The notes beneath the pieces are model-generated. The model saw only the letters and a list, made by a program, of their open reading frames with translations, did not search any database and had not been told where the DNA came from. Source: a candidate division KSB1 bacterium (GTDB lineage: Bacteria; Electryoneota; RPQS01). From it: a DNA stretch of 64,000 nt. Both the position numbers and the translations under genes were made by a program. The stretch lies in contig JACRMR010000017.1 of the NCBI GenBank assembly GCA_016214895.1, positions 124,001 to 188,000 on the forward strand, read 5' to 3'. Within the stretch, counting starts at the first letter, position 1, and every line of letters begins with the position of its first letter. This document shows, one piece after another, positions 4,539 through 36,977 of this stretch.

Positions 4539-7118
4539 CTACGGACCGCACCAGCTGATCTTGCAGTGTGACACAATCGCGTAGAAGTACTTCCACTCCA
4601 CGCCCGGCGTCACGCCGAAGTCAACATAGAACGTGTCCGCCGTCGTCGCCAGATAGGTCGTCGGTAGGATCGGCACGTCCGGTGTGGTCGCGCGGTAAAC
4701 CCGGTAATCCGTTACGCTGGCCACGGGCGGCCAGTGCAAATGAATATCCGGATTGGCAATCGTCGGATAGTAAATCACCACACTGTCCGGACGCTCGCAT
4801 GCCGGCGGCGAACAAATCGTGCAGCGCGCCCGCAACCAGTAGGTCGCGCACGGCGTCACAACTCCGACCGCCGGACGCACTTGCACGAAATAACGACCCG
4901 GTGGCACACACGCACCCACGCAGGCCGTACTGCACGCCAATGCCCGGTCGCAGTCCAACGTGTCCAAATCGCGGCAGGGGAAGCCCCCCGGCCCGGGAGC
5001 GTACAGCAGAATCTCCACTGCATACTCCGCCGTCACACAGAACCACATCGTGTCCGGCTCGAGCGTTTCCACGATGTACCAGTCATGGTCGCGCGCGCCC
5101 GTGCTATCCGCCCACGCCGAACCGCAAACGTCCGTGCCGCAAGCGAGCGGCCCGAACGGAGTGGCACCCGGCACCGGACCGTCGCAACCACTGTTGTAGA
5201 AGTCCGGGACATTCGGACACGGCTCGCCCTCGGGAATGGACTGCGGCGAACAGATCACCTCGCACGGCTGCGGACACTGACACGACGTACAATGAACCGT
5301 CAGAATGTACGGTCCGATCGACGGCGCCGCCGCGCCCGCGCCTTCGACCTTGATCATGTAGAAGCCGGGCGGCAGACAGGCTGAGACCAGACGACTGTCA
5401 AAGCCAATCCCGCCGTCATCATCCATCCCCAGCACCGTCACACAGTCATTCGCATACAACCAGACCCGCGGATTCAGACCCTGCCCGAACGGCCACAGCC
5501 CCGGAGTGTCATTGCCAAAGACGTCGATGAAGACCTGCCCGCACGGCGCCGTCTGCAATTGCAATAGATACCAATCCACATCTGTCTGCGCGGAAATCTC
5601 GCCGCATAGCGAGTCCCCGCAGATCACCAGCGGATCGAAGGTGCCGCACGTGTTATTTACCGGCTCGATATCGCGCGATTCCAGTGGACAACTGTCCTGC
5701 GGACATGCGCACGGCTCGCAGTAAGTGGCGAGGATGTAGGGCCCGGGAGGCGAAGCCGCCGTCGGCTTGCTGACCAGAATATGATACAGCCCGGCGGGAA
5801 GGCAGAGTTCCAGATGCGCGTCATTTCCCACACCGCTATTGTCATCGGAGCCCAGCAGGTTCGCGCAGCCAAGATCATAGACCCTGACCACAGGATCCAG
5901 CCCCTGACCAGCCGGCCACCAACCCGGAGTATCGTTGCCGAACACATCCAGTTTTACGTTCGAACAACCCCCGGTCGGGACCTGCAACAGGTAATAGTCT
6001 CCGGACGTATTCTGTTCGATGTCGCCGCACAACGTGTCGCGGCAGAAAATCTGCGGATTGCCCGTCGCACACACGTTGTTCGGCTCGAAATCACGATTCG
6101 GATAGGGACAACTGTCGGCCGGACACGGACACGTCCGACACGCCAGCGCCAGCACATACGGCCCGCCCGGCGCACTCGGCGTCGGCTGATCCACCCGCAA
6201 GTAATACAGGCCCGGCTCCAGACAGAGCGAATCCAGCTTCGCATCCGTCCCGATCCCGCTGTCGTCGTCGAACGCCAACACCGTCGCACAATCCGCGGCC
6301 ACCAAGAACACCCGCGAATTGAGACCCAGCCCGAACGGATAGTAGCCCGGCGTGCTCGTCGCGAACACATCCACGGTCAACTCAACGCAACCCGAGCCGG
6401 TCAGCGTGAGCGCGTACCAGTCCGCGTCCGTCGACGGATTGATCTCGCCGCAAACCGTGTCCGGACACGAAAGCTGCGGCACGTTCGGTCCGCACACGTT
6501 ATTCAACGGCTCCGTGTCCGCATCGGGATAGGGGCATTGCGGCGGATTGCACGGCGCCGTCGGACAGTTATTCCCCGAGACTACATTGATCAGGTAGTTT
6601 CCGGCCGTCACACCGCCGGCCCCGCCGTCCACGATCACGTAGTAGGTCACGCCCTGCTCCACGTTCAGCGCCGGACAGCAGCTCTGCTGCCCGCAAAAAT
6701 CATCGTTGCAGCAAACCAGCGTCCCGCCGGATGTCGGACAGCCCCGCCAAATGTGCAGGGCCGTATTGTAACTCGAAAAGCATAACGACACCGTGATTAC
6801 CGTACTCACCGGCGGAGTCATCACATACACCGCATCCGGGGCATTGCTGGCGGTCACGCAGGGCGGCGTATAGTCATTCGCCAGCCCCACCGTCGTGCCA
6901 CTGTCGCAAAACGGAAGCGTCGTGATCACCACCGCATCCGTACACCGATCGCCGCCCTGGTCCAGTGCGTTGCCGCCCCGACCCTCCGGCTGGAGCATCA
7001 TCATCGGCTCCGCCCCGTTCCAGCCCTCCCCCGTCACCGTGTCTGCCAACACCCCGCCCACCGCCAACCAGAGCACCACCGTCAGCCCCAAACAACATCG
7101 TATTCCAGTCCTGTTCAT
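4539..7118 (-). CDS. Cys-rich secreted protein with tandem PPC-like domains and C-terminal FnIII-like domain
   Basis: This protein has 859 residues. The ATG at 7118 is chosen over an upstream start because AGCGGAGGAA stands just before it and a clean signal peptide follows (MNRTGIRCCLGLTVVLWLAV..). After an N-terminal domain with the pattern 'CNDDFCG...GVTYYVIVDG' (bacterial pre-peptidase C-terminal, PPC-like) come three similar units of about 130 residues. Each reads CPYPxxDxEPxNNxCG...CGDI...DWYLLQ...LDVFGNDTPG...DDDSGIGxDA...GLYxIxVxxP. A shorter fourth unit and a final FnIII-like segment (DYRVYRATTPDVPILPTTYL) follow. Paired cysteines in every unit suggest disulphide-stabilised exported domains. 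There is no PNPFNP tail. The binding partner is unknown. Confidence 0.8.
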   Translation of the reverse strand: MNRTGIRCCLGLTVVLWLAVGGVLADTVTGEGWNGAEPMMMLQPEGRGGNALDQGGDRCTDAVVITTLPFCDSGTTVGLANDYTPPCVTASNAPDAVYVMTPPVSTVITVSLCFSSYNTALHIWRGCPTSGGTLVCCNDDFCGQQSCCPALNVEQGVTYYVIVDGGAGGVTAGNYLINVVSGNNCPTAPCNPPQCPYPDADTEPLNNVCGPNVPQLSCPDTVCGEINPSTDADWYALTLTGSGCVELTVDVFATSTPGYYPFGLGLNSRVFLVAADCATVLAFDDDSGIGTDAKLDSLCLEPGLYYLRVDQPTPSAPGGPYVLALACRTCPCPADSCPYPNRDFEPNNVCATGNPQIFCRDTLCGDIEQNTSGDYYLLQVPTGGCSNVKLDVFGNDTPGWWPAGQGLDPVVRVYDLGCANLLGSDDNSGVGNDAHLELCLPAGLYHILVSKPTAASPPGPYILATYCEPCACPQDSCPLESRDIEPVNNTCGTFDPLVICGDSLCGEISAQTDVDWYLLQLQTAPCGQVFIDVFGNDTPGLWPFGQGLNPRVWLYANDCVTVLGMDDDGGIGFDSRLVSACLPPGFYMIKVEGAGAAAPSIGPYILTVHCTSCQCPQPCEVICSPQSIPEGEPCPNVPDFYNSGCDGPVPGATPFGPLACGTDVCGSAWADSTGARDHDWYIVETLEPDTMWFCVTAEYAVEILLYAPGPGGFPCRDLDTLDCDRALACSTACVGACVPPGRYFVQVRPAVGVVTPCATYWLRARCTICSPPACERPDSVVIYYPTIANPDIHLHWPPVASVTDYRVYRATTPDVPILPTTYLATTADTFYVDFGVTPGVEWKYFYAIVSHCKISWCGP

Positions 7119-7360
7119 GGCCAGTTCCTCCGCTGTTAAGTGCAATCAGCAACTGCCTATTAGCGTCTTCTGCTTGCCATAGCACCTCCGTATTCATCAA
7201 TATATGCTCGACTCTATGCAAAAGCAATAGGTACTCACCTATTCTCACATCTTCGCTCATGATCAGCAACTCTGACCCCGGTTCCATCGCCTCCTCGACA
7301 ACACTCCCGCCGCCGAGCCGCGCGCCCGCGCATGGCCAGAATCAAAGCTCCCCACAAACA

Positions 7361-25702: not shown

Positions 25703-27532
25703 ATGAAGAAAGCGATTAGTTTGTTTGCGGTGCTGGCCCTGATGTGTGCGTCCTGGGCTCTGGCAGATGAAGTGGCGGTCCGTGTGCCGCTCGGAACGGT
25801 CAGCCATGCCGGCCTGTCGAACCCGACCAGCCGCGCCGGTTCCTGTACGGTGGGCTTGCTGGACCTGAACAATCCGGACCCCACGTTTGAGATCAACCGC
25901 TTTGGCGCCGACATCGGCGAAGTGTACAAGATCTATCTGGATCCCGCCACGGATCAGCTCGGCACCAACGTCTGTACGCCGCCGTACTATCCGTATCACA
26001 TCTCTTCCGTAGATGTGTTCTTCGTGATCAACGGCGTGGATTCGACCCAGAATATCGGCCGGACGTTTACGTTCACGGTCGATGTCGAGTGCCCGGCTGA
26101 TGGCCCGAGCCCGAACGTCACCCGCTCCTGCAAGGGACCCGGCGCGGCCGTGGCCAGTGCCGTCGGTTCGTACACGATTACGTCCGCCGATTGGAACGGC
26201 AGCCAGATTATTGCCGTCAATGTGCCGATCGACGCGTGCGTGAGCGATGCCTTCTTTGTGGGCGTGACGCTCGACTCGTGGGACGGCGAAGCCCTGAGCT
26301 ATCCGGGCGTCCTGTTCCAGGTTAACCCGCTGTTCCCGAACCAGTATTGCCGTGTGTGGGCCAAGTGGGACCTCGGTCGCGGCCCGTGTTTCTTTGTCGG
26401 CAATGTTGACGTCGGTTGCGGCGCCGGTTGCAACATCGGACCGTGGGGCATCTATGCCAACGGCGAGTCCGAAGCGGCTTGCACCCCGGCTGTCTGCATC
26501 CCCTGCCCGAACAACCTCGTCGGCGAAGCCGCGGATGACCCGATCCATGTGAACGGCACGCCGTGGACGGCTGACATCAATCTCTGCAACTACTGCAGCG
26601 ATTATGACTTCTCGCTCGACAACGAACTGTTCGGCGTCTGGGCCGCTTCGTTCACTGGCCCCGGCGGCGACGTTGTCCTCCAGATCGACCCGATTCCGGG
26701 GATCCCGGCTAACCTGACGATTACGATCGTCCCGATGTGCTCGCCGACCATGACGCAGTTCCGTCTCCGGTGGTGGTTGAAGGATGTCTATGGCACGTAC
26801 GCCAGTGCGGGTATCGCTCCGTTTGGGTTCCCCGGCTATGGCGCGTCGGTTACGATCTCGTCGGCGCAGGTTGGCCTGTTTGATGCCGCCAACGGCCCGA
26901 TCCAGCTCTTCATCGACACCCGTAACTGCTGCTGCCCGATTCGCGTGACCGTCACGGGCGATCAGATCCTCCCGGTCGAGATCACCTCCTTTAACGCCAC
27001 CGCCGGCAACGGCGAAGTGACGCTCAACTGGAGCACCGCTTCCGAGACCCACATTGATCGCTATGATGTCGTGCGCAATGACGGCGAAGTCGTCGGCTCC
27101 GTCGAGAGCCTCGGCGACAATGCCGCCGGCCACACCTACTCGTTCGTGGATCGCGGCCTTGAGAATGGTCGGACCTACAACTACCAGCTCCAGGCTTACA
27201 ACCTCGACGGCGCCGTTGTGACGCAGACCGAAGTCGTGAATGCCACCCCGCATTCCGGCCTGGTCGCCAACGAGTATGCGCTGGCGCAGAACTTCCCGAA
27301 CCCCTTCAACCCGTCCACCCAGATCAGCTACTCCTTGAAGGAGACCGGTCTCGTGACGCTGAAGGTCTTCGCCATCGACGGTCGTGAAGTGGCGACCCTC
27401 GTGAACCGCTCGCAGGAGAGCGGCGTCTATACCGTGGACTTCGACGGCAACAGCCTGGCCAGCGGCGTCTATATGTACACGCTGGATGTCAACGGCTTCA
27501 GCGCCAGCCACAAAATGGTGCTGATGAAGTAA
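25703..27532 (+). CDS. Cys-rich secreted protein with FnIII-like and PNPFNP sorting domains
   Basis: This protein has 609 residues. AGCGGAGG precedes the ATG by 8 bases. The signal peptide is MKKAISLFAVLALMCASWALA. The N-terminal 400 residues contain about 20 cysteines in short clusters (CNIGPWG, CTPAVCIPCPNN, CNYCSDYDF, CCCPIRV), pointing to disulphide-rich exported domains of unknown role. Residues from about 425 form the LPVEITSFNATAGNGEVTLN FnIII-like domain common in this group. The last 85 are a sorting domain (NFPNPFNPSTQISYSLKETG ... GVYMYTLDVNGFSASHKMVL). The protein should be exported through a type IX-like route. A hairpin at 27661 ends the transcript. Confidence 0.87.
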   Translation: MKKAISLFAVLALMCASWALADEVAVRVPLGTVSHAGLSNPTSRAGSCTVGLLDLNNPDPTFEINRFGADIGEVYKIYLDPATDQLGTNVCTPPYYPYHISSVDVFFVINGVDSTQNIGRTFTFTVDVECPADGPSPNVTRSCKGPGAAVASAVGSYTITSADWNGSQIIAVNVPIDACVSDAFFVGVTLDSWDGEALSYPGVLFQVNPLFPNQYCRVWAKWDLGRGPCFFVGNVDVGCGAGCNIGPWGIYANGESEAACTPAVCIPCPNNLVGEAADDPIHVNGTPWTADINLCNYCSDYDFSLDNELFGVWAASFTGPGGDVVLQIDPIPGIPANLTITIVPMCSPTMTQFRLRWWLKDVYGTYASAGIAPFGFPGYGASVTISSAQVGLFDAANGPIQLFIDTRNCCCPIRVTVTGDQILPVEITSFNATAGNGEVTLNWSTASETHIDRYDVVRNDGEVVGSVESLGDNAAGHTYSFVDRGLENGRTYNYQLQAYNLDGAVVTQTEVVNATPHSGLVANEYALAQNFPNPFNPSTQISYSLKETGLVTLKVFAIDGREVATLVNRSQESGVYTVDFDGNSLASGVYMYTLDVNGFSASHKMVLMK

Positions 27533-32398: not shown

Positions 32399-32925
32399 GA
32401 AGCAGTGTTCCCGTTCCGAGGTTCTGGTTGACTGCTACTCAAGCAAGATGCAGACCGATACCTATGAGGTTTGCTATCGCTCCGCCGTCGCTATTCCCAT
32501 GTGCGACAATAAAGTCGCACGCGTGCGAAAACGAATTCGCAGCCGCGTCGCGTCGCTTTCGGCCGTTCCGACAACTCTGTCCGACTCTTTCATATCTCGC
32601 ACCCGATTCAGATGACCGTCGTGGATGTTCTACATGATTTCCGGTCTGAATGGCACATGCATTGCAACTTGTGACAGAAACGTATTGATCGCGACTGATT
32701 GCTTCGGCCGATACGCCCCCAATAGGTCTGTGGGACAACGTCTCTCCGGCAAAACGGGTGCTCACCAACAGGCAAGATCGTCCCGCCGACGTGCGGCGCT
32801 GCTGCCAAGGTGAAATGTAGGCCGTCCGTGAAACGTAGGTCGGCGCTCAGCAACGGAATTGTGAAACCCCCGAAGGCCCCGTCAAAGAACCACGGGACCG
32901 AAAACACTCGAAGGAGACCCCATCC
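32399..32925. other. 527-bp leader region ahead of the Cys-rich Hsp20 gene
   Basis: A perfect 7-bp hairpin GTGCGAC-AATAAA-GTCGCAC lies at 32501-32520. I do not see a CIRCE or other known heat-shock operator. The Hsp20 gene has a strong AAGGAGA at about 32909-32915. The kinase on the other side would need its promoter here too. No gene is supported. Confidence 0.45.
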
Positions 32926-33522
32926 ATGGCCTCAAGCACCCTCACGCGCAAGAAAACAACGAAGAGTTCCAGCAGCAAGAGCATGTCGAACAAGAGTTTG
33001 AAGAGCTATTCCAACGGGCATACCGCCCCGTCCAGCCCGAATCCATGGACCTACAATCCGTGGACGATGACCAACGGAACGCCGTTCAACGGCACGATGA
33101 ATCCGACGCCGATGAACAGCATGAGCAACCCGTACCTCGTCGACTCCGTAAACCGCGTGTTCGAGGAACTCACGCGCTCGTGGGATGCTGACGGCCGTCC
33201 GTGGACTCCGCGCTGCGATTTCTGGGAAACCGCGACCGGCTATACCATTCGCTGCTGTGTGCCGGGCTGCACCAAGAGCGATTGCAAGATCGCCTGCACC
33301 GCGACCTCCGTCACGATCAGCGGCTGTTGCAACATGTCAACCTGCCCCACCAACTGCAACTGCTACTCGTGCGAGTGCCAGAGCGGGAACTTCGCGCGCT
33401 GCTTCACGCTGCCGAACGCGATCAACACCAGTTCGGTCAAAGCCAGTTGCAAGAATGGCGTATTGACCGTCACCTGCCGCAAGTCCAGCCAGCACAAACC
33501 GACGACCGTGAAGATCGGTTAA
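32926..33522 (+). CDS. Cysteine-rich Hsp20 (alpha-crystallin domain) protein
   Basis: This protein has 198 residues. AAGGAGA precedes the ATG. Residues 1-70 are a low-complexity Ser/Thr/Asn/Pro/Met region without a signal peptide. Residues 71-92 match the Hsp20 N-terminal helix (LVDSVNRVFEELTRSW). Residues 94-198 follow the alpha-crystallin domain strand by strand: WTPRCDFWETATGYTI, then VPG-x-TKSD-x-KI, VTISG, FTLPNAINTSSVKAS, KNGVLTVT, and a final VKI like the C-terminal IxI motif. Where ordinary members have charged or hydrophobic residues, this one has 16 cysteines (97, 110, 111, 115, 120, 124, 134, 135, 140, 144, 146, 149, 151, 159, 175, 184). Small heat-shock proteins hold unfolding proteins. 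The cysteines could bind metal or form redox-controlled crosslinks; both are inferences. Confidence 0.85.
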   Translation: MASSTLTRKKTTKSSSSKSMSNKSLKSYSNGHTAPSSPNPWTYNPWTMTNGTPFNGTMNPTPMNSMSNPYLVDSVNRVFEELTRSWDADGRPWTPRCDFWETATGYTIRCCVPGCTKSDCKIACTATSVTISGCCNMSTCPTNCNCYSCECQSGNFARCFTLPNAINTSSVKASCKNGVLTVTCRKSSQHKPTTVKIG

Positions 33523-35036: not shown

Positions 35037-35375
35037 GCCTTCAATATACAAATATTTGTTTGTACATGCAAATTAATGGACACCACCTCGCTTCGACGTG
35101 AGTGGTCAATAGCAATGCAGAAGAGAAGTGGTCCCTCCCGCAGAGACATGCGGGCTGCGGAACGCGAGCGGAGGGTAGCGCGGTGAAGGCTAACTTGCGG
35201 TCGATTGCCCTGAATCCACTGGAGTTGCAGACACCATAGCCGGGCGTTGCAAAAATATTATAAACCAAGTCCAATTAACACGATAACGATAGAAATGCTT
35301 GATTCTTGGATCTACTTGCGTTATCTTAAACGGTGCGAGATGACCCGAGAATTTTCACCATTACGGACCCCGATA
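35037..35375. other. Divergent leader between marR and the M6 peptidase
   Basis: Besides the operator-like palindrome at 35048, a hairpin relative (CCCGCAGAGACATGCGGG, about 35137-35154) is present, with the same ATGTCTC centre as other intergenic elements. A long AT-rich section (35230-35330) precedes the peptidase. No gene is seen. Confidence 0.5.
35048..35059. promoter_or_regulatory. Candidate MarR operator
   Basis: ACAAATATTTGT is a perfect 12-bp palindrome in an AT-rich context (TATACAAATATTTGTTTGTA), 12 bp upstream of the chosen marR ATG and inside the optional TTG extension. MarR proteins typically bind such inverted repeats next to their own gene. Confidence 0.45.
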
Positions 35376-36977
35376 ATGAATACGCCTTTGCGGACGATTT
35401 TCCTACTCTCATTACTTCTGCCACTCTGCTCGATTCCACTCTCGGCCATGCCGCCGCACCCCGACCTGCTCGCGCGAATCCAGAGTGGCGAACAGCCCAT
35501 GCCGCATTACCTGCAAAACGAAGCCGCGCTACGGGCGCGCGGAATCGAAAACCCAGACCGCGTGCGAACGCTCAGCGATCTGATGGGTCCTGAGCGCGAT
35601 ACGAACCTGCCAATTCTGGCGGTGTTGGTGGACTTCAGCGATAATGAAGCCAGTGTCGCGCCATCATTCTTCGACAACCTGCTGTTCGGCGCGACAGGTT
35701 CACTGCAGGACTACTATCAGGAAGTCACCTACGGCAATCTAACGCTCATGACGTATGATTCGCCCAGTACGGTGCTTTGGGTGCGCGCACCGCAGACCTA
35801 CGCCTACTACGTGGACGGGCAACAGGGCGAAGGAACGTACCCGCACAACGTCCAGAGACTCGTCGAAGACGTGGTGGCGATCATCGATCCCGTCGTGGAC
35901 TTCTCGGTGTACGACCCGAACGGCGACGGGGACGTCGATGGATTTTTCCTCATCCATGCCGGACCCGGCGCGGAAGTGACCGGCTCCAATGACGACATCT
36001 GGTCCTTCGCCTGGACCACCGAAAACGTGCCCCTTGTGGACGGCGTTTGGGTGTACAAGTTTTCCACCGAACCCGAGTATATGCAAACTCCCGGGGACGA
36101 GACCTTCGGAGTTTACGCTCACGAAGCCGGACACGCGGTGTTCGGCCTGCCGGACTTCTATGATACGGACTACACTTCTGAAGGCCTCGGCCTCTGGACG
36201 CTGATGGCGGGGGGAAGCTGGGGCGGCAACAGCGGTGATTCGCCGGCCCATCTTGACGCCTGGAGTAAGATTCACATCGGCGTCGTTACGCCGACTAACG
36301 TCACGACGCCTGTGATCGGCGCGGCGATCCCGGCCGCTGAATCGTCTCCCACCGTGTATCGGCTGTGGACCGGCGGCGCAACCGGTGATGAGTACTTCCT
36401 GCTTGAGAACCGGCAGCAGATCGGATACGATCAATCCCTGACGGCCACGGGACTGCTCATCTATCACGTGGACGACGCCCAGACCAGCAATGACAACGAG
36501 TGGTTCCCCGGTCACACTTCGACCGGCAACTACTGGGTCGCCCTTGAGCAGGCCGACGGCTACTGGGACTTGGAAACCAACTACAACGACGGCGACGAAG
36601 GTGATCCCTACCCGGGGACTGCCAACAACCGCGACTTCAGCGACGCCTCGCTGCCGGAAAGCGGAGGCTATGACGCACAACCCTCCGGTGTCGTGGTGAC
36701 CAACATCTCCGCCTCGGGCGCGATCATGTATGCCGATCTCTCGGTCAGCGGCGCGGGTGCGCTCGCGAATCTGGTCGTGGACCGCGTCGGCGCGAACACG
36801 CGATTGTCCTGGCGCGCGCGGCTTGGCGCGGCGGAATATCGCGTGTACCGCAGCAGCACTCCCGACGTCGCGATCACGCCGGGGAACTATATCGCCACCA
36901 CCACCACCACGGAGTATCTCGATCCGCTCGGCGCGACGGTCAGTGCGTTCTATGCCGTCACCGCTGTGACTCCGTAA
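35376..36977 (+). CDS. Secreted M6-family metallopeptidase (immune inhibitor A-like)
   Basis: This protein has 533 residues from the ATG at 35376, which gives a compact signal peptide (MNTPLRTIFLLSLLLPLCSI). ATGs at 35340 or upstream are possible. The zinc site is H249-E250-x-x-H253 within VYAHEAGHAVFGLPDFYD, and D260 matches the HExxHxxGxxD-type third ligand of the M6 family. Typical upstream features are LAVLVDFSDNEASV, LQDYYQEVTYGNLTL and DGFFLIHAGPGAE. Downstream lie EYFLLENRQQIGYDQSL and GLLIYHVDD. The last 80 residues are FnIII-like (EYRVYRSSTPDVAITPGNYI ... YAVTAVTP). It is an exported protease acting outside the cell. There is no PNPFNP tail. Confidence 0.92.
   Translation: MNTPLRTIFLLSLLLPLCSIPLSAMPPHPDLLARIQSGEQPMPHYLQNEAALRARGIENPDRVRTLSDLMGPERDTNLPILAVLVDFSDNEASVAPSFFDNLLFGATGSLQDYYQEVTYGNLTLMTYDSPSTVLWVRAPQTYAYYVDGQQGEGTYPHNVQRLVEDVVAIIDPVVDFSVYDPNGDGDVDGFFLIHAGPGAEVTGSNDDIWSFAWTTENVPLVDGVWVYKFSTEPEYMQTPGDETFGVYAHEAGHAVFGLPDFYDTDYTSEGLGLWTLMAGGSWGGNSGDSPAHLDAWSKIHIGVVTPTNVTTPVIGAAIPAAESSPTVYRLWTGGATGDEYFLLENRQQIGYDQSLTATGLLIYHVDDAQTSNDNEWFPGHTSTGNYWVALEQADGYWDLETNYNDGDEGDPYPGTANNRDFSDASLPESGGYDAQPSGVVVTNISASGAIMYADLSVSGAGALANLVVDRVGANTRLSWRARLGAAEYRVYRSSTPDVAITPGNYIATTTTTEYLDPLGATVSAFYAVTAVTP

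Follow-up and report, generated by a model that had tools for sequence, protein, structure and literature searches.

A cysteine-rich, remodelled Hsp20 from a candidate division KSB1 bacterium and the possible role of its thiols

Introduction

Few chaperone folds have been studied as much as the Hsp20 domain, which is normally almost free of cysteine. In a 64,000-nucleotide stretch of a candidate division KSB1 genome (hereafter the window), one gene encodes an Hsp20 protein in which about one in seven domain residues is a cysteine, with the predicted fold retained. The locus raises the question of whether these cysteines are an accident of drift or a selected property and, in the latter case, what they might do. 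If the thiols act, a small heat-shock protein of the non-metazoan type would have a redox or metal switch of its own at the strand-swapped interface, a counterpart to C137 of HSP27 that was built in a different place.

The gene and its predicted fold

The sequence-only reading that preceded this analysis had located the gene exactly, in coordinates as well as strand (Table 1). The frame is intact, its GC3 of 0.80 is like that of neighbouring genes, and the cysteine pattern is common to two orthologues from independent assemblies, which rules out an artefact or a frame error. By reading, the first 40 residues (17% Lys/Arg, more than 50% Ser/Thr/Asn/Gln, no hydrophobic stretch) contain no signal peptide, in agreement with what had been proposed, and none is supplied by the 29 in-frame codons upstream of the ATG. 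The N-terminal arm starts as a basic Ser/Thr/Lys-rich segment, which passes into a Trp/Tyr/Pro-rich stretch. The C-terminal motif reads VKI in one orthologue (L005) and IKT in the other (L006).

Table 1. Positions of the cysteine-rich Hsp20 gene and its features in the window
Feature	Position	Strand	Remarks
Shine-Dalgarno AAGGAG	32911..32916	+	9 nt 5' of ATG; read directly
Cys-rich Hsp20 gene	32926..33522	+	198 aa; start ATG 32926, stop TAA 33520-33522
N-terminal arm, residues 1-61	32926..33108	+	Cys-free, predicted disordered; similar arm in both orthologues
Pre-ACD helix (..VNRVFEEL..), residues 69-89	33130..33192	+	AlphaFold2 model
Alpha-crystallin domain (ACD), residues 93-190, beta2-beta9	33202..33495	+	PF00011, AlphaFold2 pLDDT, Foldseek 1gme/3w1z/5ds2
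Cys97 codon, beta2, ordinary Val	33214..33216	+	Cys in all three orthologues; would face partner's beta6
Cys110-Cys111, beta3	33253..33258	+	private to this genome; Ala-Tyr in orthologues
Cys115...Cys120 (PGCTKSDC), loop after beta3 to beta4 start	33268..33285	+	both conserved
Cys124, beta4	33295..33297	+	private; Leu in orthologues
Cys134-Cys135, end of beta5	33325..33330	+	private; Thr-Thr in orthologues
Dimerisation loop with beta6, residues 136-153	33331..33384	+	Cys140, 144, 146, 149, 151; no insertion vs ordinary Hsp20
Cys159, beta7	33400..33402	+	private; Tyr in orthologues
Cys175 codon, beta8, ordinary Tyr/Phe	33448..33450	+	conserved; strand lines beta4-beta8 groove
Cys184, beta9	33475..33477	+	private; Leu in orthologues
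VKI, C-terminal I/V-x-I/V motif (V195-K196-I197)	33508..33516	+	read directly

Membership of the Hsp20 family was borne out by profile comparison, in which PF00011 matches residues 99-196 at E 3e-14 (53.4 bits against a curated cut-off of 20.8). An AlphaFold2 model, built on a 42-sequence alignment, has seven strands and, outside the loop, pLDDT values of 90-96 for most positions between 91 and 190; confidence is lower in this loop, at about 136-150, and in the N-terminal arm. When the predicted ACD was submitted to Foldseek, it retrieved wheat Hsp16.9, S. pombe Hsp16 and pea Hsp18.1 (1gme_D at E 3.4e-8; 5ds2 at TMt 0.84), and the nearest solved structures by sequence are likewise plant and bacterial small heat-shock proteins. 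The sequence-only reading had made its proposal depend on an alpha-crystallin fold; this fold is predicted with high confidence and matches wheat Hsp16.9. None of the invariant positions of the 42-sequence set has changed (P95, G114, G133, E150, G154, R158, A173, G178, L180 and K186), including Glu150 and, in beta7, Arg158, and the dimerisation loop has its ordinary length.

The protein shares its domain, fold, dimerisation-loop length and pre-ACD helix with ordinary non-metazoan Hsp20s (PF00011; wheat Hsp16.9, Salmonella AgsA, M. jannaschii Hsp16.5), as well as the conserved Arg158, the G-x-L motif and the C-terminal VKI. It differs from them in its 16 cysteines (8 in its orthologues), in being basic rather than acidic, in its few charged residues and in an N-terminal region of 92-114 residues instead of about 44.

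Number and placement of the cysteines

The 16 cysteines (residues 97, 110, 111, 115, 120, 124, 134, 135, 140, 144, 146, 149, 151, 159, 175 and 184) all belong to the ACD, lying within the Hsp20 match or just before it, and none is found in the 92-residue N-terminal region. Against a background of 1.5% Cys, which was taken from the other large frames of the window and is raised by a 62-Cys exported protein, the binomial tail for 16 Cys in 106 residues is 6e-12. Ordinary Hsp20s of related genomes (n=39, in the alignment) have 0-2 cysteines per whole protein, and even the widest set of ordinary loci has only 0-3 in the domain, so that the enrichment proposed from the sequence stands.

The replaced residues are of several kinds. 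Six cysteines occupy hydrophobic strand or loop positions (97, 115, 120, 124, 175 and 184), where the ordinary strand residues are Val97, Val/Ile120, Leu124, Tyr/Phe175 and Leu184. Cys110 replaces Ala, residues 146 and 149 replace aromatic or aliphatic loop positions, and charged or polar positions have been replaced at 111, 134, 135, 140, 144, 151 and 159, those at 111, 134, 135 and 151 being charged. The cysteine-rich loop, CPTNCNCYSCEC, had been described as an extra element; this did not hold, as it aligns without insertion to the ordinary beta5-beta7 loop. An added module is thus ruled out by the alignment, and what is seen is the normal dimerisation loop rewritten in place.

Orthologues, conservation and descent

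Orthologue scans covered 193 related genomes, then 386, plus 39 genomes of the phylum, and recovered the protein in only two other genomes (G011 and G012), both from one sister family of the same order; an independent contig scan led to the same two contigs. The family of the window itself yielded no cysteine-rich Hsp20 from any of its ten remaining genomes, and none came from genomes further out. Genome-wide and viral scans, with either the protein or the three-row alignment as query, returned no member outside the order, and the best places in a plasmid search held only ordinary hsp20 at 32-34% identity.

Each orthologue has 8 cysteines. Seven columns are common to all three proteins (97, 115, 120, 140, 146, 151 and 175), and the eighth orthologue cysteine sits in column 148, next to Cys149 of the window protein; in the dimerisation loop, three columns are accordingly conserved and a fourth is shifted by one. 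About eight cysteines are private to the window protein, at positions occupied in the orthologues by Ala, Tyr, Leu, Thr, Thr, Ser/Ala, Tyr and Leu, and several of these need two base changes from the orthologues' codons. Conservation of the cysteines, on which the sequence-only reading had made its proposal depend, thus holds in part: 7 of the 16 columns are kept, in only two orthologues, with an eighth displaced by one residue, whereas about half are not conserved, and the test is a weak one because only three sequences exist.

In a tree that was built after removal of every Cys column, the three cysteine-rich proteins form one clade (support 99/100) on a long stem of 0.88 changes per column. 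The ordinary Hsp20s that these genomes also encode fall outside this clade, and beside them the cysteine-rich protein is an additional paralogue. The rpoB tree places the window's genome at the unresolved base of its family. Distances between the cysteine-rich proteins (about 0.73 across families, 0.30 within the sister family) run parallel to those of rpoB (about 0.59 and 0.27), and vertical descent with losses is therefore a fair reading of the sequences, with transfer as a possible alternative.

About half of the cysteines recur in distant relatives within the order, and the thiols hence look selected rather than accidental. Drift is furthermore hard to reconcile with cysteines that replace both hydrophobic strand positions and charged ones, in several cases through two base changes. 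Such selection would probably have been for redox- or metal-dependent clamping.

Remodelling of the whole domain

The changes extend to the composition of the entire domain. In all three proteins, Asp and Glu make up 4-7% of the ACD (18.5 +- 1.7% in ordinary Hsp20), the pI of the ACD is 8.5-9.3 (ordinary 5.5 +- 0.6), Ser/Thr/Asn/Gln account for 29-34% (ordinary 18.5 +- 3.1%) and Ile/Leu/Val/Met/Phe for 16-20% (ordinary 26.6 +- 2.2%). The N-terminal region, of 92-114 residues in all three against an ordinary mean of 44, is strongly basic in its first 40 residues. Within a chaperone family that is well known, the protein represents a genuine subfamily, conserved and strongly remodelled.

As the whole composition is shifted and not Cys alone, the cysteines could be a mere symptom of a shift to small uncharged residues in a fast-evolving, little-constrained paralogue without special chemistry, and both the long stem branch and the private half of this genome's cysteines would suit such a history. 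We regard this as the least probable of the explanations considered here, since seven Cys columns have remained fixed in all three although the domain has otherwise changed by half (the window protein and L005 have only 51% identity in the domain), the family-invariant G114, G133, E150, G154, R158, G178 and L180 are all kept, and the gene itself is intact and similar to its neighbours in GC3.

The remodelling of pI, acidic residues and Ser/Thr/Asn/Gln, together with the long basic N-terminal arm of all three proteins, is also consistent with a structural role, to which the cysteine-rich exported proteins of the same window lend some weight. The protein would then form a disulphide-cross-linked scaffold or coat, in which the basic aromatic arm binds a polyanion or the envelope and the cysteines weld the lattice, perhaps in a dormant form. 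Such a role is a serious but rather improbable rival, given that the protein has neither a signal peptide nor a C-terminal sorting domain, that the bacterial cytoplasm is normally reducing, and that the cytosolic disulphide oxidoreductase PDO (TIGR02187) is above its cut-off in G012 only and not in this genome or in G011. A general intracellular disulphide habit was discarded on the same distribution. The spore-coat relatives of Hsp20 (CotM), considered as a structural analogue, yielded nothing that bears on the cysteine-rich protein.

A possible thiol- or metal-dependent switch

Our tentative preference, over three rivals, is for a thiol- or metal-switched small heat-shock protein, a duplicated and specialised cytoplasmic family member whose assembly or holdase activity may be gated by thiols. 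The reasons for this preference are the conserved cysteines at the presumed swapped interface and on the groove strands, and the precedent of C137 in HSP27. In dimers of non-metazoan small heat-shock proteins, beta6 and the beta5-beta7 loop are exchanged between subunits (PMC5427286; PMC3638399). In AgsA, Gly98, the loop residue that matches the conserved Glu, forms hydrogen bonds with Tyr44 and Asp45 of the second subunit's beta2 (PMC4823740). This conserved Glu pairs with the Arg of beta7; in the window protein the two are Glu150 and Arg158. Since the spacing from Asp45 to Gly98 in AgsA (53) resembles that from Asp98 to Glu150 (52), Cys97 is likely to be the counterpart of Tyr44.

If the protein dimerises as other non-metazoan Hsp20s do, with its beta6 loop swapped onto the partner's beta2, the published topology would bring the conserved Cys97 (beta2) up against the partner's Cys149 and Cys151 (Cys148 and Cys151 in the orthologues) and close to its Cys146, conserved cysteines of beta6. 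Each half of the two-fold interface would then hold four conserved thiols, an arrangement suited to a Cys4 metal site or inter-subunit disulphides. In the reduced cell, the interface cysteines would be present as free thiols or form a Cys4 site of the zinc type. Inter-subunit disulphides would arise on oxidation or metal exchange and alter the stability of the oligomer. The groove that receives the IXI motif and clients is lined by beta4, with the conserved Cys120, and beta8, with the conserved Cys175, and disulphide formation would expose or close this beta4-beta8 groove. The eight extra cysteines of this genome may be an extension of the same thiol system.

A related mode of regulation is known from HSP27, whose dimers are redox-sensitive and are strengthened by an inter-subunit disulphide of C137 (PMC6403371). 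HSP27/HSPB1 is thus similar in being an Hsp20 with a dimer-interface thiol that can form an inter-subunit disulphide, but its interface is of the metazoan type (beta6+7) and not a swapped loop, and it has one interface Cys as compared to the eight to sixteen domain cysteines found here. A functional likeness may also exist to the zinc- and thiol-switched holdases Hsp33 and Ruc (Rv0991c), although the switch would here reside in the ACD itself. In Hsp33 and Ruc, the reduced cysteines bind zinc, and oxidation results in a gain of chaperone activity. The protein is no member of the Hsp33 family, as PF01430 is not among its Pfam matches and occurs nowhere in the genome.

A dense C-x-C and C-x-x-C spacing, which recalls metallothioneins, is found in the loop of all three proteins (CNCYSC / CFCNEC). 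The protein could accordingly be a metal buffer on a chaperone scaffold, with thiolate clusters for zinc, copper or soft toxic metals carried by the ACD, metal bound by the loop C-x-C-x2-C-x-C as metallothioneins do, and chaperoning secondary or lost; two or four Cys4 sites would agree with the count of 8 or 16 cysteines in each chain. We regard this as a serious but less probable rival, because most cysteines lie in strands and several in core positions, unlike in the unstructured metallothioneins, and no metal-related neighbour was recognised at the three loci. Metallothioneins are short, consist mostly of Cys clusters and have no stable metal-free fold, whereas this protein has 198 residues, 8% Cys overall and a predicted folded beta-sandwich with its cysteines mostly in strands, and no metallothionein model is among its Pfam matches. 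Of similar, rather low probability is a reading in which the ACD itself has become a multi-site thiolate or metal cluster protein, with metal held across the swapped interface and one fold serving as both holdase and metal store; the load would in that case differ twofold (8 vs 16 Cys) within one order. Buffering of metal has been proposed for another small heat-shock protein, HSPB5 (alphaB-crystallin), as a zinc reservoir, yet HSPB5 is Cys-free and would act through His in its disordered N-terminal region. All observations agree with the original suggestion that the protein may be metal-loaded or disulphide-locked; the proposed merger with a metallothionein-like function is one reading among several.

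The Cys chemistry of the remodelled subfamily is directly testable. Orthologues with 8 and with 16 Cys, together with the ordinary paralogue that these organisms also encode, provide a ready-made comparison set. A literature search, which covered open-access publications, found no paper on a cysteine-rich small heat-shock protein.

Genomic context

Several observations count against a thiol switch. The Arg that is usual at loop position 151 is lost, no conserved neighbourhood was found among the window and the orthologous loci, and the window contains no site for the CIRCE heat-shock element. No element clearly common to the three genes was recognised in the sequences upstream of them. In the window, the neighbours of the gene encode a hybrid histidine kinase, an F420-type NADP oxidoreductase, a MarR regulator and an M6 peptidase of the immune inhibitor A type, the last of these downstream (35247-36977, +). 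Hsp33 (PF01430) was not found in any of the order's 13 genomes, against 8 positives among 14 control genomes. This would speak for the thiol switch; however, Hsp33 is also absent from members of the order that lack the cysteine-rich Hsp20, and its absence is thus background and not complementation.

Some further loci were noted in passing. In G012, the TIGR02187 (PDO_seleno_TRX) match L075 (G012:C166:346-966) has one TGA inside and is possibly a selenoprotein, present in one genome of the order. In the window, an 868-residue frame (4542-7145, -) with 62 Cys (7.1%) encodes a cysteine-rich exported repeat protein with an apparent N-terminal signal sequence, whose modules are of the type CP..SCP.P.RD.EP.NN.C...D..CG.I...TD.DWY.L.L and give a weak PPC match (0.004, below cut-off). 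Another exported protein (25703-27532, +; 609 residues, 20 Cys) combines an fn3-like region with Por_Secre_tail. Por_Secre_tail domains are carried by exported proteins of the organism, and a protein with this domain is also encoded on a contig that is probably G012:C134.
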